A DNA stretch of 12,269 nt from an uncultured bacterium (GTDB lineage Bacteria > Eisenbacteria > RBG-16-71-46 > CAIMUX01): contig CAMPIC010000030.1 of the NCBI GenBank assembly GCA_946886185.1, positions 1-12,269 on the forward strand, in the 5' to 3' direction. A model generated the notes under the pieces. It worked only from the letters and a program-made list of their open reading frames with translations. It had not been told where the DNA came from and did no database searches. Below, in pieces: positions 1,287-11,047 of the stretch. Each line of letters opens with the position of its first letter. Position 1 is the stretch's first letter. The translations under genes were made by a program, and so were the position numbers.

Positions 1287-3107
1287 TCAAAGCGCGACCC
1301 GCAGTCCCAGGCTCGGGATGATGGGAAGCATGCGATAGATTTCCGGCTCCGCGGCCAGATGTTCGATTCCGTACTGCACGAACCACTCGTTTCTGCGGCT
1401 GTAGAGATTGAAAACCTGCACCATCCAGGTCGCGTCGCGACCCCACAGGCGGAAGTCCCGCGAGACGCTCACGTCGAGCCGGTGATAGGGAAGAAGCCGG
1501 GCGGAGTTGCGCTCGCCCGGCAGCACGATGACTTCGAACTGCCCGTTGTCTTCCGCGGGATTGCGGATCGCCATGAGCGCGGCAGCGGGGGTGAATGCCT
1601 GCCCGGTGCCGTAGTTGAAGTTGGCCGAGTAGGTCCAGCTGCCGCGCTTCCAAGCGGCGACGGCGCTGAGATCGTTCCGCCGATCGTACTTGGGTGGGAA
1701 CGATCGACCCTCGTTGAGCTCGGCGAAGGTGCGGCGCGTCCAGCCGAGCGTGTAGCCGACCCAGCCGGTGAGATCGCCCGCCCGTTTCTGCGCGAACAAC
1801 TCCAGTCCCGTGGACCATCCGCGTCCGCCGCTATGGAAGAGATCCTCCGCGGACGTGTCATTTTGATCGCCCGGCACCGTGTTATCGAACATCACCACGT
1901 CGCGCAACAGCGTCACATAGCTCTCGATTCCCAGCTGATACGTTCGCTCCGGCTCCCAGTCGATCCCGATCGCCCCCTGGTAGGAACGGCCCGGCCGAGC
2001 GGTCCGATCGATCGGAATGTAGAAGTCGGCCGCGGAGAAGCCTTCCGTGCTCACCAGCTGGATGTACTGATGGTACAGACCGCCCGCGAGTTTGAATCGC
2101 ACCTGGTCGGAGAGGAGCCTGCTGAAGGAGATGCGCGGTTCGAGCAGGAAGCGCCGGCCGTCGGAGAAGTAGCGCGAGCGCACGCCGCTCTGCAGGCGGT
2201 TCTCCTCCCCGGTCCAGTCATCCTGCGCATAGAGCGACAGGTCATGGGGAGACTTGCGATAGAAGATCTGCCGCTCTCGATTGAACTCCTGATCGAACTC
2301 GAACCAGTATCGCGTGCCTTCCCATCCTGCCAGGATCTGGTGGCGCGGGTGCGCTTCCCATCGGGCTTCCACGCCGAAGGTCGCGTCCACTACCCGGTTG
2401 GCGAATGAAGCGGGCGTGGTGAAGAGCTGGAAGGAGCTCTCGCTGCGGTAGTGGCTGATCGCCCCGCGAATGCGGGTGAGGAACCGGGTGCCGGCGATCC
2501 TGGTGTGCGCGATCGAAGCGGCGGTGTTTCCCCAACGCAGGCGCACGAAGGTGTCGTCGTCGAGATCGAAACGCAGGTTGTCGCTGCCTTGATAAACGGT
2601 AGTGAGGGTGCGGGCGCCGTCTCCATGACTCCAGCGATAGCCTCCGTTGAGATCGTAGAAGTAGTAGTGGGGGATGTCGGAGTCGGCTCTGCGCGCGGCG
2701 GAGAGGAACGGTTCGAGGAAGGTACGCCGACCGGCGAGATACCAGGCGCTCTTGCGGTCGCTTCCTGAAGGGCCACTCAAGAGCAGGTGGCTCGTGACCG
2801 TGCCGAGTGCGACCTCTCCTTCGAACTCCTGCGACTTCGGATCGAGACTGCGGACGTCGACCACCGCGCCGAGCCTCCCGGCGAACTGCGCGGGATAAGC
2901 GCTCTTGTACAGGTTCACTTCCTCAACGGCGTCGGCGTTGAAGGTGGAGAAGAATCCGAAGGCGTGGGTCGGGTTGTAGATCGTGATGCCGTCGAGCATG
3001 ACGAGGTTCTGATCGGGCCCGCCACCGCGTACGTAGAGGCCGCTCGAGAAGTCCGAGACCGCCTGCACTCCCGGAAGGAGCTGAAGGCTGCGCAGCGGGT
3101 CGGACTC
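1287..3107 (-). CDS. TonB-dependent receptor, plug and beta-barrel part (downstream of a frameshift)
   Basis: From the frameshift at about 3107 this frame is open for 606 codons to a TGA at 1289-1287. It begins in the plug domain: ESDPLRSLQLLPGVQAVSDF, then SSGLYVRGGGPDQNLVMLDG, then 'YNPTHAFGFFSTFNADAVEEVNLYK' and 'GRLGAVVDVRS'. This is the standard plug pattern of FCB-type receptors. The rest is a long alternating-strand barrel with many aromatic girdle residues, ending in 'PSLGLRVAL' as a terminal strand. The first candidate start codon in this frame is the GTG at 3068, far inside the conserved plug, so an independent gene is unlikely. The family imports substrates across the outer membrane using energy from TonB-ExbBD; the substrate cannot be read from sequence. 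No SusD-like partner is present; the DUF4249-like lipoprotein follows after 11 bp. The barrel shows no stop or decay, so the frame break is either recent or a sequence error. Confidence 0.85.
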   Translation of the reverse strand, partial: ESDPLRSLQLLPGVQAVSDFSSGLYVRGGGPDQNLVMLDGITIYNPTHAFGFFSTFNADAVEEVNLYKSAYPAQFAGRLGAVVDVRSLDPKSQEFEGEVALGTVTSHLLLSGPSGSDRKSAWYLAGRRTFLEPFLSAARRADSDIPHYYFYDLNGGYRWSHGDGARTLTTVYQGSDNLRFDLDDDTFVRLRWGNTAASIAHTRIAGTRFLTRIRGAISHYRSESSFQLFTTPASFANRVVDATFGVEARWEAHPRHQILAGWEGTRYWFEFDQEFNRERQIFYRKSPHDLSLYAQDDWTGEENRLQSGVRSRYFSDGRRFLLEPRISFSRLLSDQVRFKLAGGLYHQYIQLVSTEGFSAADFYIPIDRTARPGRSYQGAIGIDWEPERTYQLGIESYVTLLRDVVMFDNTVPGDQNDTSAEDLFHSGGRGWSTGLELFAQKRAGDLTGWVGYTLGWTRRTFAELNEGRSFPPKYDRRNDLSAVAAWKRGSWTYSANFNYGTGQAFTPAAALMAIRNPAEDNGQFEVIVLPGERNSARLLPYHRLDVSVSRDFRLWGRDATWMVQVFNLYSRRNEWFVQYGIEHLAAEPEIYRMLPIIPSLGLRVAL

Positions 3108-3550
3108 CCGATCGCCGGGAGTCGCCGCAGAATCTCACGGTCGACCAGGGTGAGGCCGGTGTGGATCTGGCGTTTCTCCGCGAATCGATCTCCCAGGACA
3201 TCGACCGGGTCCATCAGCAGCGCGGATTCGACGAGGACGAGATCGAGACGCGCGCCCGGTTCCGCGATCTCGACGGTGTCACGCGCACTCTCGTATCCGA
3301 TCCGGGAAGCGAGCACGGAGTAGCGGCCCGGTTCCAGCCGATCGATCCGGAATCGTCCCTCCCCGTCGCTCGACGTCCCGCGGCGCACGCCGTCCATCCC
3401 GAGACGCGTGACCACGACGTCCACGGTCGACATCGGGCTTCCCGACTCATCGGAGGTGCGACCTTCGATCGAAGCGCCGAACGCGCCGGGGCTCGCCACG
3501 GCTAGCAAGATCGAGCAATAGAGAATCGCGCGAATGAGTCTGTCGACCAC
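2915..3550 (-). CDS. TonB-dependent receptor, N-terminal part (signal peptide, carboxypeptidase-regulatory-like domain, start of plug)
   Basis: GTG start at 3550-3548, supported by GGAGA about 8 nt upstream on this strand. Residues 1-25 form a signal peptide (hydrophobic 'AILYCSILLAVASPGAFG', then A). Residues ~26-105 are a carboxypeptidase-regulatory-like beta-sandwich: 'IEGRTSDESGSPMSTVDVVV', 'SDGEGRFRIDRLEPGRYSV', 'ASRIGYESARDTVEI'. Residues ~110-147 enter the plug ('DPVDVLGDRF', 'LTLVDREILRRLPAIG'). After Gly148 the frame leaves homology: the tail (SPTRCAAFSSFRECRR...) to the TGA at 2915 is Ser/Arg/Pro-rich out-of-frame sequence. Adding one G to the GGG at 3109-3107 restores GESDPLRSLQLLPGVQ and a single 754-aa receptor. 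As written, this product would be a truncated exported protein without a barrel. Confidence 0.8.
   Translation of the reverse strand: MVDRLIRAILYCSILLAVASPGAFGASIEGRTSDESGSPMSTVDVVVTRLGMDGVRRGTSSDGEGRFRIDRLEPGRYSVLASRIGYESARDTVEIAEPGARLDLVLVESALLMDPVDVLGDRFAEKRQIHTGLTLVDREILRRLPAIGSPTRCAAFSSFRECRRSRTSRAASTYAVAGPIRTSSCSTASRSTTRPTPSDSSPPSTPTPLRK
3107..3109 (-). other. Frameshift point in the TonB receptor (one G missing in a G-run)
   Basis: The + strand reads ggactCCCgatcgc. Family logic expects four C (four G on the coding strand), giving atc-ggg-gag-tcc. The N-terminal frame uses codon positions starting at 3550 and the C-terminal frame runs one base out of register. No convincing -1 slippery heptamer is present: a P-site slip of GGG onto CGG would pair badly. 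Confidence 0.8.
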
Positions 3551-3930
3551 GAACTGTCTCCGGAACGTGCTGCAGCGGCCGGTCGGTAACGGTTACCAGG
3601 ATACCACTCCCCTCTCGAGGGGGCTCCGCTCGGGCCAGAAGTTCAAGCGGAGTCCACAATCTTCAATGGGAAACAGTCCGTCGAAGCGCCTCGCAACCAC
3701 GCCGATTGCTCGCGCTGCGCATGCCTTCCGTTCGCCAACCTCTCGCCGCGCCGACTCGATTCCACCATCCATGAGTTTTGTGCGGAGGAGCAGACGTCGG
3801 TTCCATTCAGGTGCAACCACCACCGGCGCATCGTGGTAAGGCACGGACTTTGCCAAGGTACGACCGAACAGTTTGTGTCGGCGCGCGAAGCGGCGAGCTC
3901 ATTTCGGGTTCATCGCAGGAGGATGCCACG
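3551..3930. other. Divergent intergenic region between receptor and Rho_N-like gene
   Basis: About 380 bp separate the leftward receptor start from the rightward 97-aa gene. It holds a perfect odd-length palindrome at 3585-3597 (own entry), a CCCCTC/GAGGGG inverted repeat at 3609-3622, and AGGAGG at 3917-3922, which sets the start of the next gene. An extended -10-like TGGTATCCT lies on the minus strand at 3606-3598, but no matching -35 is clear. Short open frames here have no signal peptide, motif or ribosome site and look like chance. No clear sigma-70 promoter is seen for the rightward genes. Confidence 0.5.
3585..3597. promoter_or_regulatory. Candidate operator palindrome upstream of the TonB receptor
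   Basis: GGTAAC-g-GTTACC is a perfect 6+1+6 inverted repeat, 35 bp upstream of the receptor GTG. It sits just downstream of a minus-strand TGGTATCCT that could act as an extended -10, so a bound repressor would cover the predicted transcription start. The binding protein is unknown. It is the only perfect palindrome of this length I noticed in this intergenic region. Confidence 0.4.
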
Positions 3931-4224
3931 ATGCCTGACAAATGGACCGAAAAAGACGAACGGCAGTACGAGAAGATCAAGCGATCGGCGCGCAGTCGCG
4001 GAATGCCTACCAAGCGGGCCAAGGAGATGGCCGCGCGCACCGTGAACGCGCATCGGCGTGAAGAAGGGCGCACGGAAAACAAAACCACCCGCGGCACCGG
4101 CAATCCGAACCAATCGTACGAGAGCCGATCCAAGACTGAGCTCTACAACATCGCGAAGAGCCGCCACATCAAGGGAAGAAGCGCGATGAGCAAGCAGGAT
4201 CTGATCGAGGCCCTGCGTGCGTGA
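3931..4224 (+). CDS. Small basic protein with Rho_N/SAP-like C-terminal domain
   Basis: 97 aa. The ATG at 3931 is chosen over upstream in-frame codons because AGGAGG lies at 3917-3922, 8 nt before it. Residues 1-45 are charged and helical ('MPDKWTEKDERQYEKIKRSA', 'GMPTKRAKEMAARTVNAHRR'), like the N-terminus of small proteins often annotated 'plasmid stabilization protein'. Residues ~46-62 are a polar linker ('TENKTTRGTGNPNQSYE'). Residues ~63-97 (SRSKTELYNIAKSRHIKGRS, then AMSKQDLIEALRA) match the Rho termination factor N-terminal helical-extension/SAP-like fold: 'K.ELY..AK...I.GRS.MSK..LI.AL'. Those domains bind nucleic acid, so DNA or RNA binding is likely but not shown. The 'plasmid stabilization' label is historical and nothing here suggests a toxin-antitoxin pair. 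The BON-domain protein follows 106 bp later in the same direction, so they may share a message. Confidence 0.75.
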   Translation: MPDKWTEKDERQYEKIKRSARSRGMPTKRAKEMAARTVNAHRREEGRTENKTTRGTGNPNQSYESRSKTELYNIAKSRHIKGRSAMSKQDLIEALRA

Positions 4225-4330
4225 GCACGCCGGGGACCGCACATCCATGGCGGAAATGGCGCATGCGACGGTAGGACGGCGAGTTCACGCTCCTTCCGGC
4301 GAAGAACACAACAGAAGAAAGGGCAAGAGA

Positions 4331-5836
4331 ATGCAATCCCAACGTTCCTACCGCAACTATGACGAAGACGACGATTCGCGCGATTCGCGTGACAACAATC
4401 GCCGCCAGCGCTCCGAGCAGTCGTCGGATTGGGGAGACTGGAGGCAGTCGCGTTCCTCCGCTCAGGGAAACCGAAGAGAATACGCGCGAGAAGGTTCCGA
4501 ATTCGATTACGACCGTGAGCGCTCCGAGCGCGGTCGCGGCAATGCGCGCTGGCGTGATGACGAGGAACAACGTCCCTGGCAGAGCCAGCAGTCCCGCTAC
4601 GAGCGATTCGGAGACGAGGAGTCGGAACGCGGATGGCGCGGAGAGTCGCGCGGCGGCTCCTCGGGTGGATCGCGCGAGGGATACCAGGACCGATACCGCG
4701 GGAGCTCCGGCCGCGGCGCGAGCAACCAGGGAAGGGAAGGTCGCGAGTCGTATGAGCTCGGCGGCCGTTCCTACGGCCAGGGCGGATACCGCGAAGGCGG
4801 GTACGGCCAGGAAGGCTTCGATCGCAGCGGCCGCGAGCACACCGGATACGGCCAGAGCGCGTACGGACAGAGCGGCTACGGCCAGAGCGGCTACGGCCAG
4901 AGCGGCTACGGCGAGGGCTACTACGGTCAAGGCAGGGAGCGGAGCTACGGCCAGGGTGGTTATGGCCAGGGCGGCTACGCGGGCTACGGCCAAGGCAGTT
5001 ACGGCGGAGGCTACGGCGGATACGGCGGTGGACAGTCGGACTACGGTCAAGGCGGCTACGGACAGGGCGGCCAAGGCGGCTACTACCAGCAGCGTCAAGG
5101 CGGTCAGAGCGGCTTCCAGGGCCAAGGTGGCTACGGCGGGCGCGGATATCCCGGCTATCAGCGCGGACAGTACGGCGGTCAGGGCGGATATCAAGGCGGT
5201 TTCCGTTCTGGTGAAGGCTCCGAGGATGAGGGCGGCTATCAGTCTCAAGGAGGAGGCTTCCAGTCATACGAAGAGGGAAGCGGAGGCTATCCCTCGTACG
5301 GACAGGGCGGCTCCTTCTCCAGCTACGAAGACTCCGGATACGGAAGCGGCTCAGGCCTCGAACGCGGATCCTATGGGCGCGGACAGTCGCAAGGGAGCGC
5401 CGGAGGTTGGCGCGGCGAGTACCAGGGCTCCGAGCGCGGCAGCATGCAGGGCCCGTTCATGGGCAAGGGTCCCAAGGGCTACAAGCGCTCCGATGACCGG
5501 GTGAAAGACGAGGTGTGCGATCTGCTCGAGCGCCGGGGAGACATCGACGCGAGCGAGATCGAAGTCACCTGCAAGGAGGGCATCGTCACGTTGAGGGGCA
5601 CGGTTCCGGACCGCAACATGAAGCGCAAGGCGGAGGAGTCGGTCTCCCGGATGTATGGAGTGACCGATGTCATGAACGAGCTCCGTGTGAGCTCCGGGAC
5701 GCAAGGCAGCGAGTCCGAGAAGTCGGGCACCGAGAGGTCCGGCGCTGACAAGTCGGGCAACGACAAGTCGGAGAAGAACTCGGGCTCCGCGGGTAGCGAG
5801 CGGCAGCGAACCACGACCAGCCAGACCAATCGCTGA
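4331..5836 (+). CDS. BON-domain protein with long Tyr/Gly/Gln/Ser-rich low-complexity region
   Basis: 501 aa. The ATG at 4331 is preceded by GAAAGGGCAAGAG; upstream in-frame ATGs at 4217 and beyond lack a ribosome site. There is no signal peptide, so the protein is predicted cytoplasmic. Residues ~1-140 are rich in Arg, Asp/Glu, Ser and Gln ('NYDEDDDSRDSRDNNRRQRS', 'RERSERGRGNARW'). Residues ~140-370 are low complexity, with at least 13 YGQ motifs, tandem YGQSG, and many GGY, GYG and SYG steps. Residues ~384-455 form a BON domain: 'YKRSDDRVKDEVCDLLERRG', 'IDASEIEVTCKEGIVTLRGT', 'VPDRNMKRKAEESVSRMYGV' and 'TDVMNELRV'. Residues ~456-501 are a Ser/Lys/Glu/Thr-rich tail. BON domains are small alpha/beta folds known from OsmY and secretins that bind lipids or partners. 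Similar short glycine-rich BON proteins occur in soil bacteria, usually with a shorter repeat region. A condensate or stress role is inference from composition. Confidence 0.85.
   Translation: MQSQRSYRNYDEDDDSRDSRDNNRRQRSEQSSDWGDWRQSRSSAQGNRREYAREGSEFDYDRERSERGRGNARWRDDEEQRPWQSQQSRYERFGDEESERGWRGESRGGSSGGSREGYQDRYRGSSGRGASNQGREGRESYELGGRSYGQGGYREGGYGQEGFDRSGREHTGYGQSAYGQSGYGQSGYGQSGYGEGYYGQGRERSYGQGGYGQGGYAGYGQGSYGGGYGGYGGGQSDYGQGGYGQGGQGGYYQQRQGGQSGFQGQGGYGGRGYPGYQRGQYGGQGGYQGGFRSGEGSEDEGGYQSQGGGFQSYEEGSGGYPSYGQGGSFSSYEDSGYGSGSGLERGSYGRGQSQGSAGGWRGEYQGSERGSMQGPFMGKGPKGYKRSDDRVKDEVCDLLERRGDIDASEIEVTCKEGIVTLRGTVPDRNMKRKAEESVSRMYGVTDVMNELRVSSGTQGSESEKSGTERSGADKSGNDKSEKNSGSAGSERQRTTTSQTNR
4847..4906 (+). 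repeat. 15-bp tandem repeat encoding YGQSG
   Basis: Four in-frame copies of tacggccagagcggc at 4847, 4862, 4877 and 4892. The first ends gcg instead of ggc and the second has gga for ggc; copies three and four are identical. Near-identity at DNA level points to recent slippage or unequal exchange that lengthens the low-complexity protein region. Looser copies of tacggNcagggcgg continue to about 5070. Confidence 0.85.
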
Positions 5837-5865: not shown

Positions 5866-5901
5866 GACCGCCTCGGTGGGATCGCTCTCACCGAGGCGGT
5901 C
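5866..5901. terminator. Perfect 13-bp stem, probable bidirectional terminator
   Basis: GACCGCCTCGGTG (5866-5878) and CACCGAGGCGGTC (5889-5901) are exact reverse complements with a 10-nt loop. The hairpin lies 30 bp after the rightward BON gene and 51 bp after the leftward secreted-protein gene, where a shared terminator is expected. Read leftward the stem is followed by TTTCC, a short T-run; read rightward it is followed by ACTGTC, so it is probably stronger for the leftward gene. Confidence 0.75.
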
Positions 5902-5951: not shown

Positions 5952-6602
5952 CTAGTTGTAGAGCGACTTCACGCCACCCCAGGTGGTCTCGATCACCGGC
6001 GTCGGACCGCCGCTGACTCCAGCGCGGATTCCGTCGTCGAAGCCGTAGGCGTTCGTGTCGTCATACCAGGAGCCGTAGAAGAACGACCACGAGTATCCTG
6101 GATTGGCGTCGTCGAACGCGTAGAACAGAGCGATCACGTCACCCGGGTTGATGGCCGTTCCAACGCCGAAGAGATCTCCGGAGTTGTAGTTCAGTCCATA
6201 ACCGGAGATGTCCACGGTCTGGAAACCAGACGCGCTCGACGGGGGCGTGTAGTTGATCGAGTTGGCCGCCACGCTCAGAGGAGCGGCGCCCAGCGCGCTG
6301 ATGTTCCACACTTCGGCGGGACGGCCGCCACCAGGTCCGTAGGAATACACGTAGTACTGCGCTTCATCCAGCAGCCACGGGCCGCCGGCGGGCGCTTCGA
6401 AGTTCACCACGGTGTTCTGAGTCCATCCGTAGTAACCCCCGAACGATCCGAGGTAGCTCGCGCCACCGTCATACTCCAGCACCACTTCGGAAACGGATTC
6501 CGGCTCGGGCTGGGGAGTTCCGGTGAACGGGAGGAATTCACGCGCGCTGGCTGGCGCGGCCGCGACCGCCGCCAAGGCGAGAATCGTGAGCATTTGCTTC
6601 AT
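5952..6602 (-). CDS. Secreted beta-rich protein of unknown family
   Basis: 216 aa, ATG at 6602-6600, TAG at 5954-5952. The start is fixed by GGAGAGGAAG about 7 nt upstream and by the signal peptide that begins there (MKQMLTILALAAVAAAPASA, then REF). The mature part is rich in Gly, Tyr, Ser, Trp and Asn and looks all-beta: 'VNFEAPAGGPWLLDEAQYYV', 'INYTPPSSASGFQTVDIS', 'INPGDVIALFYAF', 'SWSFFYGSWYDDTNAYGFDD', 'GIRAGV'. The 'SWYDD...GFDDGIRAGV' pattern recalls the closing strand of jelly-roll domains found on surface proteins of anaerobes and FCB bacteria ('...F.IRA.V'). No sorting tail or catalytic motif is seen. It is a single gene with its own promoter at 6714-6685 and a terminator at 5901-5866, which suggests independent, possibly strong expression. 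No function is assigned. Confidence 0.8.
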   Translation of the reverse strand: MKQMLTILALAAVAAAPASAREFLPFTGTPQPEPESVSEVVLEYDGGASYLGSFGGYYGWTQNTVVNFEAPAGGPWLLDEAQYYVYSYGPGGGRPAEVWNISALGAAPLSVAANSINYTPPSSASGFQTVDISGYGLNYNSGDLFGVGTAINPGDVIALFYAFDDANPGYSWSFFYGSWYDDTNAYGFDDGIRAGVSGGPTPVIETTWGGVKSLYN

Positions 6603-6684
6603 GAGACGTCTTCCTCTCCACGATAAGTGTTGTGTCCACCTTCCCGGAAAGCTCCACATGGACCCCCTCGCGAAAGGCGATATG

Positions 6685-6881: not shown

Positions 6882-8663
6882 GTGGAAACCATTGTAACAA
6901 AACAAGTCCGGCGCTTCGCCGGCGCGCTCCTCCTTCTGCTGGCGGCGGGCGCCGCGGCAAGCTCCCTCCTCCAATGCGCCCCCGAGGCGTCGATGGACGA
7001 TGCGGTGGTCGCACGGACCAACGATGGTTGGGCCCTGACCCGCGATGAGTTGATGGGGGAGTTTGTCAGGGTTAACCCCGAATTGCCGTTCGAGGAGGCT
7101 TCTCCCGAGCTTCGGCAGAAGTTTCTCTCCGACGTGGTGAACGCGCAGCTCCTCCGCGGAGTGGCCGAACGCGCGATTGCGAACCCCAGCTGGGAATCGC
7201 AACGGAGGCTCCTGGTCATGCGGGAAGAGTGGCTCGCCGGGTCGCTCTTTCGGGAGTTTCTGGGCAAGGTCGACCCGACAGAGGCGGACGAGAATCGGAT
7301 GTTGGTACGCCTCGAGCGGGCCGCGCGTCTTCAGAGGATCGTGCCGCCCAACAAACAGCAAGCGGAGCGATGCTACGAGGCGCTCCTGCACGGACTGCCG
7401 TTCGAAGAGGCGTACCAGAGATACGCGATCCAGTCGGACGAGCCGCTCTCCACCCTCGATCTCGGAGCCGTGACCCCGATCAAGCTGCCGCGCGAGGTCG
7501 TCCGAACGATCTTCCTGGCAGAGCTCCGGCCGAATCAGTTCACCGCTCCGATAGCGACCCGCAAGGGGTTTTGGATCGTAAAGTTTCTCGGATTCGAGCA
7601 GGTCGAGCTCGAGCCGGCGCATCGGAGCCGCATCGCGGTCATGGCGCACACGCTCTGCGCGGAAGACAGTGTGGAGGCGCGGCGTGACGCTCTGAGCCGA
7701 GCCGCGGGATATCATCTGTTCGAGGAGAATCTTCCCCTGCTGAGCCGCCGCTTCGACTCCTACTGGGACTCGCTCAGCGCGGAGCAGCCGAAAGCGAACG
7801 AGAAGGTGCTGATGTCCTGGAAGGCGCCGACCTGGCTGCTCGCGCCGGAGGAACGCTCGCTCCCCATTTACGTGTTCTATGGAGATACGGGGACCGCGGC
7901 CGACTTCATGGAGAGCCTCAACGCCGTCAACTCGCTCTCTTGGCCGTCGGGCCCGACCCTGGAGCAACGGGTGGCGGAGATCCGCAGGCGGATCCGCCAT
8001 CTTTTCCTACGAGAAGAGGCGATACGGCGCGGCCTCGAACAACGCCCCGAGCTCGCAGAGCTGCTGTCGCGCCAGGAAGAGGAAGGGTACCTCGACGATT
8101 ACTTCGATCGCGTGGTCGCGCCCGCGATCCAGGTGACACCGGACGAAGCGATCGCGGAATACGAAGCGGCCCCCGAGCGGTACCGGACGCCGGAACGAGT
8201 CGCGTTCGCCTATCTCATCTTTCCCAGGGACCGGCGTGACGCGGCCGCGCGTTTTCTGGAAGAGCATCGCGCGGACGACCTGCGCCCCTGGTTCCAGGCG
8301 GCTGCGAGCCTGGCGGCCCAGGACAGCACCGTGCTCTTTTCCCGGGACACCGGCCTCATCGACCTGTCCTTGCCCCCCCGCGACTCGATGTTGGAGCCGC
8401 TCATTGAAGTCGCATCTACGATGCAGACCGGAGAGCTGGGAAATCTGATCGAGTTGGAGGAGGGAGTCGCGATCCTGCGCTGCAACTATCGCAAGGAGGG
8501 AAAGCTGCTCCCCAGGGAGGCAGCCCTGCCGCTCGCAGAAGGGGAGGTTCGCGCCGACAAGACGGACGCGTTCCTCGAGGGGATTCTCGCGCAAGAGCGC
8601 AAGGCACGCGGACTGGAGCTGTTCCCCGAGCGGCTCGCGCCGCCCGCGTCGGCCGCCTCGTGA
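6882..8663 (+). CDS. Exported parvulin-like peptidyl-prolyl isomerase (SurA/PpiC/PrsA-type)
   Basis: 593 aa from a GTG at 6882, with no strong ribosome site visible. Residues 9-31 form a signal sequence (basic 'KQVRR', then 'ALLLLLAAGAAASSLLQC'). Cys32 could be a lipobox Cys, but Gln at -1 is atypical, so either a lipoprotein or ordinary cleavage is possible. Residues ~37-150 are a helical SurA_N-like part ('TRDELMGEFVRVNPELPF', 'LRQKFLSDVVNAQLL'). Residues ~154-240 are parvulin-like: 'GLPFEEAYQRYAIQSDEPLS', 'LDLGAVTPIKLPREV', 'LRPNQFTAPIATRKGFWIVK'. After a second helical segment, residues ~434-545 look like another, more degenerate parvulin unit ('RVAFAYLIFP', 'DTGLIDLS', 'MQTGELGNLIELEEGVAIL'). 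The family folds envelope proteins in the periplasm. The gene overlaps the next by GTGA, so the two are translationally coupled, and its partner may be the downstream lipoprotein. Isomerase activity of the second unit is doubtful. Confidence 0.8.
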   Translation: METIVTKQVRRFAGALLLLLAAGAAASSLLQCAPEASMDDAVVARTNDGWALTRDELMGEFVRVNPELPFEEASPELRQKFLSDVVNAQLLRGVAERAIANPSWESQRRLLVMREEWLAGSLFREFLGKVDPTEADENRMLVRLERAARLQRIVPPNKQQAERCYEALLHGLPFEEAYQRYAIQSDEPLSTLDLGAVTPIKLPREVVRTIFLAELRPNQFTAPIATRKGFWIVKFLGFEQVELEPAHRSRIAVMAHTLCAEDSVEARRDALSRAAGYHLFEENLPLLSRRFDSYWDSLSAEQPKANEKVLMSWKAPTWLLAPEERSLPIYVFYGDTGTAADFMESLNAVNSLSWPSGPTLEQRVAEIRRRIRHLFLREEAIRRGLEQRPELAELLSRQEEEGYLDDYFDRVVAPAIQVTPDEAIAEYEAAPERYRTPERVAFAYLIFPRDRRDAAARFLEEHRADDLRPWFQAAASLAAQDSTVLFSRDTGLIDLSLPPRDSMLEPLIEVASTMQTGELGNLIELEEGVAILRCNYRKEGKLLPREAALPLAEGEVRADKTDAFLEGILAQERKARGLELFPERLAPPASAAS

Positions 8664-11047
8664 ACACGATCGCGCGACGTCGCATCCTGGCCCGGCATTG
8701 CGCTCGCATCCCCATCCTGGCCCGGCATTGCGCTCGCATCCCCATCCTGGCCCGGCATTGCGCCGGCATCCCCGTCCTGGCCGGCATGCTTCTCATCCTC
8801 GGCTGTGGCAGCCCGGATCGCTCCGAGACGGGCCCCAACTTGATTCTGATCACCCTCGACACGACTCGCGCCGATCGACTCGGGTGCTACGGCTACGAGG
8901 CCGCGATCACTCCAGCACTGGACAGCCTCGCCGCCCGTGGCGTCCTCTTCGAGAACGCGATCGCGTCGGTGCCGATCACCCTCCCGTCGCACTCGACGAT
9001 CCTCACCGGGCTCTCCCCTCTTCGCACCGGAGTGCGCGACAACGGAATGTTCACGCTCGCGCCTCATTTCGAGACGGTCGCCGAACATCTGCTGGCGGCG
9101 GGATATCAAACCGGAGGGTTCGTGAGCGCGTTCGTGCTCGACACGGAGTACGGAACGAGCCAGGGCTTCACGACCTACGATGACCGGCTCCTGGGAGAGC
9201 GTCCCGGACTCCTCACGAGCCGCCGCGCATTGCGCTGGATCGAGTCGCTGGATCAGACCCGTCCCTGGTTCCTGTGGATCCACTATTACGACCCCCATCT
9301 CCCCTGGACTCCGCCGGAGCCGTTCCGGAGCATGGAGGAGCTCAGCCCCTACGATCAGGAGATCGCGGGGCTCGATGCGGCGGTCGGCTGGTTCCTCGGC
9401 GAGCTCCAGAGCCGAGGATTCCTCGATCACACCGGCATCGCGATCACGGGCGACCACGGCGAAGGACTCTTCGATCACGGCGAGCCTCAGCATGGCGTCT
9501 TCCTGTACGACGAGACCATCCACGTGCCGATGATGCTGGTGCTTCCCGACCACCGATGGGCGGGACGCCGCGTCGAGGAGCTGGTGGCGACCGAGGACAT
9601 CACACCGACGCTCCTCGCGATGGCGGGCCTCGCCGTTCCCGACAGTCTCGATGGCCACGATCTGATCCCGATTCTGGCGGGCGACGTCTCCAATCCGCGG
9701 AGCTATGTCTATTCGGAGACGTATTTCCCCGCCTACGATTTCCACTTCAGCCAGATCTTCAGTCTGCGCTCGCAGCGCTGGAAGTACATCCACGCGCCCC
9801 GGCCGGAGCTCTACCACGTGCGTCGCGATCCCGGCGAGACGATCGATCTGCTCCCGACCTATCCCGACACCGGGATCGCGTATCGAGATCGACTGGACGA
9901 GCTGCGCGGTCGCGCCGGAGTGGACGTGGAGAGCGCCCGCGCCATCAGCCAGGAAGAGATCGAGCGACTGCAGAGCCTCGGCTATCTCGGAGGCGGGGAG
10001 TTCGCGGCGGAGATGGATCCGCACGGTGAGTTCAATCTGCCCGATCCGAAGGACCTGAAGCCGTTCCTGCCCGACTTCGATGACGGGCTCACCGCGCTCC
10101 ACGAGGATCGGTTCGCGGATGCGGTGCAGCATCTCGAGCGCGTGATTTCCCATCATCCCGAGAACGTCATCGCGCGGATGAATCTGGCGCGGGGTTACGA
10201 AGAGCTCGAGCAGCCCGAGATGGCGCTCGTCCATCTCGAGGAGGCGGCCAAGCTCGCGCCCAACAGCTCCACCTGCAAGAAGAACGTCGCGATGGTCTAC
10301 CAGGAGCTCGGCCGTTATCCCGAGGCGCTGGAGAAGCTGCGGGAGATCTCGAACGACCCGACGCACGGCGAGTTCGCGATGAAGGAGATCGGGAGGACCC
10401 AGCTCCTCATGCGCCGGCCGGAAGATGCGCTCCTCACCTTTCGCGAGCTGGCCGATCGCGTCGGAGGAACCAACACCTTCTCGCCGCTGGGAGAGCGGGT
10501 CCGCCGTTATCTCGCGGCGCACGATCGGGTGGCCGCCCATCCGAACGATGAAGGTGCGCGCCTGGCGCTGGCGGAAGTGGCGATCGATCTGCGACTCCTC
10601 GAAGAAGCGCGCACGCTGCTCCAATTCGAGGCGTCGAGCTCGAGGATCGAGGGAATTCGGCGGCGCGATCTGGGAAGCGTGGCCGGTGCGAGCGGAGACT
10701 ACGTCACCGCCCTGCGCGAGTTCGAGACTGCGCTGCAGCACCTGCCGGGCGACGTCTACATTCGGGGCCACCTGGTGAGTCTGTACCTCGAGGCCGGCGA
10801 ACTGGAGCGTGCCCTGGCGACAGCCGAAGAGCTGATCCGCGATGGAAATGGTTCCGCCGAGGTCTACTACAACAAGGGGTGCGCTCTCTCACGGAGCGGC
10901 GACGTGGATGGATCGTTCGAAGCGATCCGGCGCGCCATCAGCCGCGGTTATGACGACTTTCTCCAGCTCAACCGCGATCCGGAGCTGGAGGCGCTGCGCA
11001 AGGATCCGAGATTCCCCGAGCTCCTCGAGACCGTGGGCGACTCCTGA
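8660..11047 (+). CDS. Sulfatase-fold (alkaline phosphatase superfamily) lipoprotein with C-terminal TPRs
   Basis: 795 aa from a GTG at 8660, overlapping the PPIase stop by four bases. The N-terminus carries three tandem 10-aa units (ILARHCARIP-like), then 'VLAGMLLILGC' with lipobox Cys49. Residues ~58-430 have the alkaline phosphatase/sulfatase fold: 'NLILITLDTTRADRLGCYGY' (metal-binding Asp67), 'PITLPSHSTILTG' (Thr107 where sulfatases carry the formylglycine Cys/Ser), 'IHYYDPHLPW', 'TGDHGEGLFDHGEPQHGV' (Asp265-His266, second metal site) and 'WKYIHAPRPELYHVRRDPGE'. The Cys/Ser-x-Pro-x-Arg signature is absent. Residues ~470-795 form TPR-like helical pairs ('RFADAVQHLERVISHHPENV', 'EQPEMALVHLEEAAKLAPNS'). 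The substrate is unknown; a phosphodiesterase or phosphotransferase with Thr nucleophile is as likely as a sulfatase. Such sulfatase-TPR fusions are known in Acidobacteria-like and uncultured genomes, so the architecture itself is not new. Confidence 0.85.
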   Translation: MNTIARRRILARHCARIPILARHCARIPILARHCAGIPVLAGMLLILGCGSPDRSETGPNLILITLDTTRADRLGCYGYEAAITPALDSLAARGVLFENAIASVPITLPSHSTILTGLSPLRTGVRDNGMFTLAPHFETVAEHLLAAGYQTGGFVSAFVLDTEYGTSQGFTTYDDRLLGERPGLLTSRRALRWIESLDQTRPWFLWIHYYDPHLPWTPPEPFRSMEELSPYDQEIAGLDAAVGWFLGELQSRGFLDHTGIAITGDHGEGLFDHGEPQHGVFLYDETIHVPMMLVLPDHRWAGRRVEELVATEDITPTLLAMAGLAVPDSLDGHDLIPILAGDVSNPRSYVYSETYFPAYDFHFSQIFSLRSQRWKYIHAPRPELYHVRRDPGETIDLLPTYPDTGIAYRDRLDELRGRAGVDVESARAISQEEIERLQSLGYLGGGEFAAEMDPHGEFNLPDPKDLKPFLPDFDDGLTALHEDRFADAVQHLERVISHHPENVIARMNLARGYEELEQPEMALVHLEEAAKLAPNSSTCKKNVAMVYQELGRYPEALEKLREISNDPTHGEFAMKEIGRTQLLMRRPEDALLTFRELADRVGGTNTFSPLGERVRRYLAAHDRVAAHPNDEGARLALAEVAIDLRLLEEARTLLQFEASSSRIEGIRRRDLGSVAGASGDYVTALREFETALQHLPGDVYIRGHLVSLYLEAGELERALATAEELIRDGNGSAEVYYNKGCALSRSGDVDGSFEAIRRAISRGYDDFLQLNRDPELEALRKDPRFPELLETVGDS
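8683..8788 (+). repeat. 30-bp minisatellite in the signal-peptide region
   Basis: Three head-to-tail 30-bp units start at 8683, 8713 and 8743, followed by a degraded partial unit from 8773. The unit begins catcctggcccggcattg and continues cgctcgcatccc. Units one and two are identical; the third differs by two bases (gccg for gctc). The length is a multiple of three, so the frame is kept and each copy adds ten residues before the hydrophobic core of the lipoprotein signal. Confidence 0.9.

Follow-up and report, generated by a model that had tools for sequence, protein, structure and literature searches.

The stretch of DNA analysed here (the window) comprises 12,269 nucleotides (nt) of contig CAMPIC010000030.1 from an uncultured bacterium of the Eisenbacteria lineage. 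Our main subject is a gene on its forward strand whose product joins a long disordered arm, rich in Tyr and Arg, to a BON domain (Table 1). The open reading frame (ORF) is a real gene, with an ATG start, an AAGG-type ribosome-binding site recognised by eye in front of it, and a start codon at the same position as in the nearest homologue, P0002 (MPKERSYRNYD versus MQSQRSYRNYD). It encodes 501 amino acid residues (aa) plus stop: the disordered arm comes first, followed by the GPKGYKRSD linker, a single BON domain and a short tail.

Table 1. Features of the BON-domain gene and its immediate surroundings in the window
Feature	Position	Strand	Evidence
BON-domain gene	4331..5836	+	ORF, Pfam, start shared with homologue P0002
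Likely ribosome-binding site	4314..4323	+	read from sequence
aa 1–130, charge-balanced Arg/Asp/Glu/Ser block; stretches kept in P0002	4331..4720	+	composition, pLDDT < 50
aa 131–375, Gly/Tyr/Gln/Ser low-complexity region, 13 YGQ, even aromatics	4721..5455	+	composition, shuffles
Tandem array with 15/30-nt units, recently duplicated, that encodes some of the YGQ repeats	4843..4926	+	repeat analysis
GPKGYKRSD linker, aa 380–388, strongly conserved in relatives	5468..5494	+	27-protein alignment
BON domain, aa 387–454	5489..5692	+	Pfam PF04972, AlphaFold2, structural matches
aa 455–501, disordered Ser/Gly/Thr/Lys/Glu tail, no aromatics	5693..5833	+	composition, AlphaFold2
97-aa basic protein whose C-terminus is of Rho_N type (PF07498), located 106 nt upstream of the BON gene	3931..4224	+	Pfam
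16-bp hairpin separating the ends of two convergent genes, candidate terminator lacking a T run	5866..5901		71-nt stretch, –39.4 kcal/mol, z –6.1

The BON domain is matched by Pfam over almost its full length (E = 3e–15, 56.7 bits with the cut-off at 27, profile positions 1–68 of 69); at E ≤ 0.001 the scan of the window protein returned nothing else, and the BON match is a single stretch with no second copy. In an AlphaFold2 model built from 27 sequences, 67 residues reach a predicted local distance difference test score (pLDDT) of at least 90. The folded elements lie within aa 388–453 and follow, in a core with pLDDT above 90, the order H-E-E-H-E of a BON fold, and pLDDT is below 50 for aa 1–374 and 464–498. 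OsmY, BonA, DolP and Kbp are all among the top 10 structural matches of the domain. The C-terminal BON fold proposed in the initial annotation is thus confirmed by profile and model alike. A cleaved signal peptide, which that annotation had named as a result that would speak against its reading, was not seen: the N-terminus shows no sign of one, since the most hydrophobic 19-residue segment in the first 60 aa scores only –1.8 (hydropathy only). One could imagine an envelope protein whose BON domain is a phospholipid binder like that of DolP, with its shared fold, and whose arm serves as a flexible spacer or surface coat, the export route being unspecified; set beside such an N-terminus, this account appears improbable.

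The arm consists of two parts of different composition. The first (aa 1–130) is dominated by Arg (21.5%), Ser (16.2%), Glu (11.5%) and Asp (10.8%), with 28 positive and 29 negative residues. The second (aa 131–375) is built of Gly (38%), Tyr (14.3%), Gln (13.5%) and Ser (11.8%), its 245 residues including 35 Tyr and 33 Gln. Taken together, aa 1–375 contain 55 aromatic residues, 50 negative charges and 44 positive ones, every one of them Arg and none Lys. The YGQ motif occurs exactly 13 times, compared with a mean of 1.8 and a maximum of 8 in 20,000 shuffles of aa 131–375; there are also 10 [GS]Y[GS]Q, 17 [GS]Y[GS] and a single RGG. For the protein as a whole, the grand average of hydropathy (GRAVY) is –1.6, Gly makes up 123 of 501 residues (24.6%) and net charge is near zero. 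These counts bear out the initial description of an Arg/Asp/Ser-rich N-terminus followed by a Tyr/Gly/Gln/Ser region with at least 13 YGQ, and of a chain carrying both Tyr and Arg stickers; the sticker reading itself was strengthened by the family-wide tests described below. The number of YGQ is inflated in part because of the recent DNA duplication that created the array listed in Table 1, and outside that duplication the YGQ units diverge at synonymous sites.

The repeats raise the question of neutral low-complexity expansion, in which slippage multiplies GC-rich repeats and the resulting composition has no function. Tandem arrays at 4826–4926, 5041–5103 and 5140–5200 fit such an origin, as does the difference in YGQ number between the window protein and P0002, whose shorter arm contains 3 YGQ and which retains much of the N-terminal block. 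The synonymous divergence just mentioned does not fit, and the behaviour of the arm across relatives argues against it further.

At E ≤ 1e–3 a protein search recovered 968 of 7,990 scored candidates, and all 120 that were listed contain a BON domain. By scanning genome contigs for GPKGYxRSD we found 539 stretches, 515 of which are relatives, and the family statistics rest on the best 80 of these, one arm per locus, plus the window (81 in all). The 80 loci were chosen by the linker pattern, and linker conservation was judged from 27 full-length-aligned relatives collected without it: G378, G380, P381, K382, R386 and D388 do not vary at all and G383, Y384 and S387 hardly do, while small variants exist in a second alphaproteobacterial sample and in plasmid genes. 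In all 80 loci the linker is preceded by an arm, in most cases with much Arg, Gly, Asp and Tyr. Judged by record titles, these loci come from Planctomycetaceae, Myxococcales, Bdellovibrionaceae, Bacteriovoracaceae, Acidobacteria, Bacteroidetes, Chlorobiota, Cyanobacteria, Oscillochloris and the alpha-, beta- and gammaproteobacteria; they are not phylogenetically independent, with several each of Nannocystis, Caulobacter, Aureimonas and Microvirga. The arm-linker-BON architecture is thus widespread over many phyla by record title. The window protein belongs to this subfamily as we define it here, by GPKGYxRSD directly before a BON domain and a disordered R/G/D/Y arm.

The YGQ motif follows another pattern. 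Its number in the arms of the 80 relatives ranges from 0 to 12, and at least 4 are present in only eight loci (four Nannocystis plus L011, L024, L071 and L075). The FUS-like flavour thus occurs in separate lineages; YGQ expansion is a lineage-specific flavour and not a feature of the family. The homologues for which the initial annotation proposed a search, with a YGQ-rich region beside a BON domain, exist as a widespread architecture in which 8/80 loci have at least 4 YGQ, and its remark on short, glycine-rich BON proteins of soil bacteria falls short of a family of 515 relatives in many phyla with a stress-promoter motif in Alphaproteobacteria.

Linker-BON matches were also found on 123 of 72,556 plasmid records, including those of Sinorhizobium, Azospirillum and Deinococcus; among 50,697 phage records there were none. 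Two of the plasmid genes, from S. meliloti and Deinococcus proteolyticus, were read and both have an Arg/Tyr-containing arm. Some genomes contain more than one linker-BON gene or close match (two in L066, three in G390, four in G003). An SWFGD motif just before the GPKGY linker was seen as a profile match in P0119 (aa 207–235) and by eye in the S. meliloti pSymB relative (L113).

What the relatives share is the residue grammar of the arm. Arms were taken from the first ATG, and at most the 160 residues adjoining the linker entered the statistics; the background for the Tyr, Lys and Arg comparisons consists of crude longest-ORF calls, so main weight was placed on the internal control of arm, BON domain and tail within one protein. 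In the 77 of 81 loci with enough background, Tyr content of the background falls steeply with locus GC content (rho = –0.84) and that of the arm is independent of it (rho = –0.005). Arm Tyr, with a median of 8.3% and a range of 0 to 15.1%, exceeds the background in 77/77 loci, and Lys is lower in 76/77. Lys is absent from 56/80 arms. The pooled ratio R/(R+K) in the 65 proteins from loci above 50% GC is 0.99 for arms, 0.75 for BON domains and 0.62 for tails; in the 17 proteins from loci below 50% GC, in whose genomic background Lys is more numerous than Arg, the corresponding values are 0.88, 0.62 and 0.31.

Aromatic residues (Y+F+W) are spaced more evenly than in shuffles (P < 0.05) in 55/80 arms, the 81st having too few aromatics. 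No other class shows comparable numbers: R 11/80, D+E 7/79, S 6/76, Q+N 9/77, G 14/81. In neighbouring ORFs of the same loci, aromatic evenness was found in 10/172, another 114 of the 286 having been left out because they contained too few aromatics; this control required 8 aromatics (5 for arms) and may contain some wrong-frame ORFs. Tyr alone is weakly even (15/76 arms at P < 0.05), and Phe and Trp are placed between the Tyr residues more evenly than randomly chosen residues would be (P < 0.05 in 47/74 arms, z < 0 in 67/74), so that the spaced unit is the aromatic class. Repeats are not the cause of the evenness, since arms with at most one YGQ show it too (z < 0 in 53/58). We therefore report a conserved arm grammar, described here for the first time, of GC-independent Tyr, Arg over Lys and even aromatics. 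That arm Tyr resists GC, that Arg replaces Lys in AT-rich genomes and that evenness holds with at most one YGQ all argue against neutral expansion, which we consider very improbable, and in the best-supported account of the protein selection maintains the arm as a sticker chain. A study of prion-like domains reports that Tyr outdoes Phe as a sticker, that Lys is destabilising, that the effect of Arg depends on context and that aromatic patterning matters (PMC11820118).

A coarse-grained chain model points in the same direction for the YGQ-rich part. It used CALVADOS-2-type parameters in our own code, with no outside validation and one 40–83 ns run each, and gives a ranking only. The apparent Flory exponent (nu) of aa 140–295 was 0.495, rising to 0.516 upon Arg-to-Lys and 0.544 upon aromatic-to-Ser replacement, and concatenated family tails gave 0.565; one arm each from Nannocystis and Bacteroidota gave 0.500 and 0.517. 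The YGQ core is thus predicted to be more self-attractive than its controls, in the sense of a rough ranking and not of droplet prediction.

The EcfG general-stress promoter has been described as GGAAC-N16-CGTT, with a GGTT variant, in the part of the source used here (PMC7083833). We scanned for it within 350 nt upstream of, or at, the assumed start, 22 of the 80 loci being alphaproteobacterial by title. GGAAC-N15-19-CGTT precedes the gene in 12 of these 22 (0.79 expected from own locus rates) and in none of the remaining 58 loci (0.34 expected). The spacer is 16 or 17 in all 12 sites; the same region contains none with 13–15 or 18–23 and two with 12. With GGTT permitted the number rises to 16/22 (1.15 expected). 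A second sample of 18 loci (27 minus 4 already counted and 5 without a recognisable linker), in which several Caulobacter-type loci are close kin of first-sample loci, gave 8/18 for CGTT (0.70 expected) and 13/18 for C/GGTT (1.34 expected). It should be noted that the expected counts are too high because the locus rates include the sites themselves. Alphaproteobacterial members are thus shown to carry often, though not in every case, a putative EcfG-type promoter motif. Elsewhere in the 22 loci there are 29 more sites with spacer 16–17, against 0–5 for any other spacer, so the neighbouring genes look stress-controlled too. No AlgU-type promoter was found in 10 gamma-, beta- or unclassed proteobacterial loci.

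In the S. meliloti pSymB relative GGAAC-N17-GGTT starts 66 nt upstream of the annotated start, and genes for a CBS protein, topoisomerase IB and glgX lie nearby. EcfG-dependent genes of Sphingomonas include a topoisomerase IB and glgX, the main text of that report, as far as used here, making no mention of BON (PMC6599016). Reports on BON proteins, with or without such an arm, place them in the AlgU regulon of Azotobacter (PMC10651043), in the set of stress genes up-regulated in a Rhizobium pssA mutant (PMC9860679) and, equipped with a signal sequence, in Nostoc (PMC7660261).

Putting these observations together, we think there is an even chance that the window protein serves the general stress response in the cytoplasm, its sticker arm driving reversible self-association and its BON domain providing targeting. 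The evenly spaced aromatics and the arginines would act as stickers in a near-neutral chain made mainly of Gly, Ser and Gln. Stress (osmotic, drying or stationary phase) would raise the level of the protein and crowd the cytoplasm, arms would then bind each other reversibly to form condensates or a gel, and the BON domain with the GPKGY linker would serve as an address or client-binding module for membrane phospholipid or a protein. Reversible self-association is, we infer, the simplest purpose of a selected sticker arm. The strongest rival is a soluble protectant of the hydrophilin type, whose arm holds water and shields proteins during drying and forms no condensates. The GRAVY value, Gly content and near-zero net charge of the protein are what one would expect of it, the stress promoter motif in relatives suits it equally, and the N-terminal block is expanded in the chain model. 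But keeping water needs neither the exclusion of Lys nor the retention of evenly spaced aromatics, and since both are seen the protectant is disfavoured; we rate it as unlikely but worth serious attention.

Several results weigh against the self-associating stress protein. One arm (L047) contains no Tyr, Tyr is below 4% in 5/80 arms, four Bacteriovorax-type arms retain 4–5% Lys, and Arg of the arm is above background in just 57/77 loci. In the chain model the N-terminal charged block, a balanced polyampholyte, gave nu of 0.530 and the P0002 arm 0.527, both above the Arg-to-Lys core, and because neither is more compact than that core the self-attraction signal appears strongest for YGQ-rich cores. 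The family is patchy: it was found in 26/99 Caulobacter-family genomes, in 8/188 genomes of the Nannocystis phylum and in at least 6/289 evenly drawn Alphaproteobacteria (a lower bound, with at most 19 candidates scored per genome), the centre genome being included in all three cases. Neither an EcfG-type site (3401–4331) nor an AlgU-type promoter was found upstream of the window gene, whose organism need not use EcfG; stress control of this gene would thus be extrapolated from alphaproteobacterial relatives only. A search of open-access literature, with subscription papers mostly outside its scope, found no experiment showing foci or droplets for any member and nothing that links the BON domain to low complexity or phase separation, glycine-rich sequence or condensates; for SWFGD it gave two papers whose titles point to unrelated subjects. 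A review mentions, in the part used here, disordered termini of BON proteins.

A broader proposal, to which we give somewhat less than an even chance, is that of a stress family of many phyla whose arm has independently evolved the sticker rules of eukaryotic prion-like domains, namely even aromatics, Arg in place of Lys and near neutrality, and forms BON-tethered condensates, the window protein being its extreme FUS-like member. If this were true, sticker-and-spacer disorder of the FUS type would not be a eukaryotic speciality, since its residue grammar would be shared by a stress family widespread in bacteria, and the many natural sequences over a wide GC range would be a ready-made test set. 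A family now annotated just as 'BON domain-containing protein' would in any case gain a concrete, knock-out-ready hypothesis.

The neighbourhood of the gene bears on one more alternative, a nucleoid- or RNA-associated stress factor whose Arg-rich part binds RNA, DNA or polyphosphate, with the Rho_N-like neighbour as partner. Preference for Arg over Lys, the Rho_N gene upstream and the topoisomerase IB gene adjoining the S. meliloti relative are all compatible with it. Yet the charge of aa 1–375 is balanced, Pfam finds no nucleic-acid-binding domain in the window protein, and pairing of the Rho_N and BON genes is not conserved, with one partial tblastn match among the fetched loci (L023, 36 aa, E = 1.4e–5). 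We doubt this account strongly. A conserved operon was likewise rejected, as no gene recurs at a fixed position beside the BON gene. Recurring ORF groups in the flanks, given as counts with no background control and with Pfam names from one representative each, include two-component proteins (up to 14 loci), an ABC-transporter-like ATPase (12, named by eye), short-chain dehydrogenase (7), BrkB/YihY, CBS and hemerythrin (5 each), and DUF4142 and DUF6496 (4 each).

Further along the window, a 30-nt tandem array of 3.5 copies (94%) occupies 8683–8787, at the 5' end of a sulfatase-TPR ORF (8660–11047). In the frame of this ORF it gives ILARHCARIP-type repeats just before a lipobox-like LLILGC (by eye), and may be coding or precede the true start. 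ORFs for a TonB-receptor N-terminus (CarboxypepD_reg) and plug at 2915–3550 and 1287–3068 (–) overlap in different frames, possibly through a frameshift in the gene or the assembly. At 5952–6659 (–) lies a secreted-looking 235-aa protein with a signal-like N-terminus after its second Met (by eye) and no Pfam or NCBIfam match.

Among known systems, OsmY and DolP of E. coli have the BON fold (PF04972) in common with the window protein, which differs from them by a single BON domain in place of two, no visible signal peptide, a 375-residue sticker arm and the strongly conserved GPKGYxRSD linker. Kbp (YgaU) is a cytoplasmic K+-binding BON-LysM protein; in the window protein Pfam finds no LysM, and the disordered arm stands in its place. 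Plasmid linker-BON matches in Paracoccus, Rhizobium, Deinococcus and Azospirillum are named 'SWFGD domain-containing' (NCBIfam NF033157) or 'BON domain-containing'; compared with SWFGD proteins, the window protein lacks a match to SWFGD, and its YGQ-rich region is much longer. Typical late embryogenesis abundant (LEA) and hydrophilin chains are rich in Lys and Glu and poor in aromatics and Arg, the hydrophilin threshold being Gly above 6%. The window protein exceeds that threshold and resembles them in being strongly hydrophilic, Gly-rich, predicted disordered and, in its relatives, stress-linked, but it is neither Lys/Glu-rich nor aromatic-poor: the arms largely exclude Lys, and their aromatics are enriched and evenly spaced.

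The FET proteins (FUS, EWS, TAF15) carry RRM, zinc finger and RGG repeats next to their low-complexity domains. The window protein contains a domain of the FET [G/S]Y[G/S]Q type; at E ≤ 0.001 Pfam finds neither RRM nor zinc finger in it, and RGG repeats are reduced to one RGG. FUS-LC has 24 Tyr and 37 Gln in 163 residues in the portion of the source used here (PMC10643395), so that the Tyr fraction is alike (24/163 versus 35/245) and Tyr stands with Gly, Ser and Gln in both, the window region being poorer in Gln (33/245 versus 37/163). Arg sits in a charge-balanced block and not in a basic RGG block, and the partner domain is BON. Homology to FET proteins was rejected; when the low-complexity region was searched against solved structures, all matches were weak (7wkk chain I, E = 0.028; synaptophysin, E = 0.79). 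The likeness to FUS noted in the initial annotation thus stands for composition and, with BON as the only Pfam domain, does not extend to a FET label. With no shared domains found, the comparison with FET proteins is best read as an analogy between chains of similar sticker grammar.
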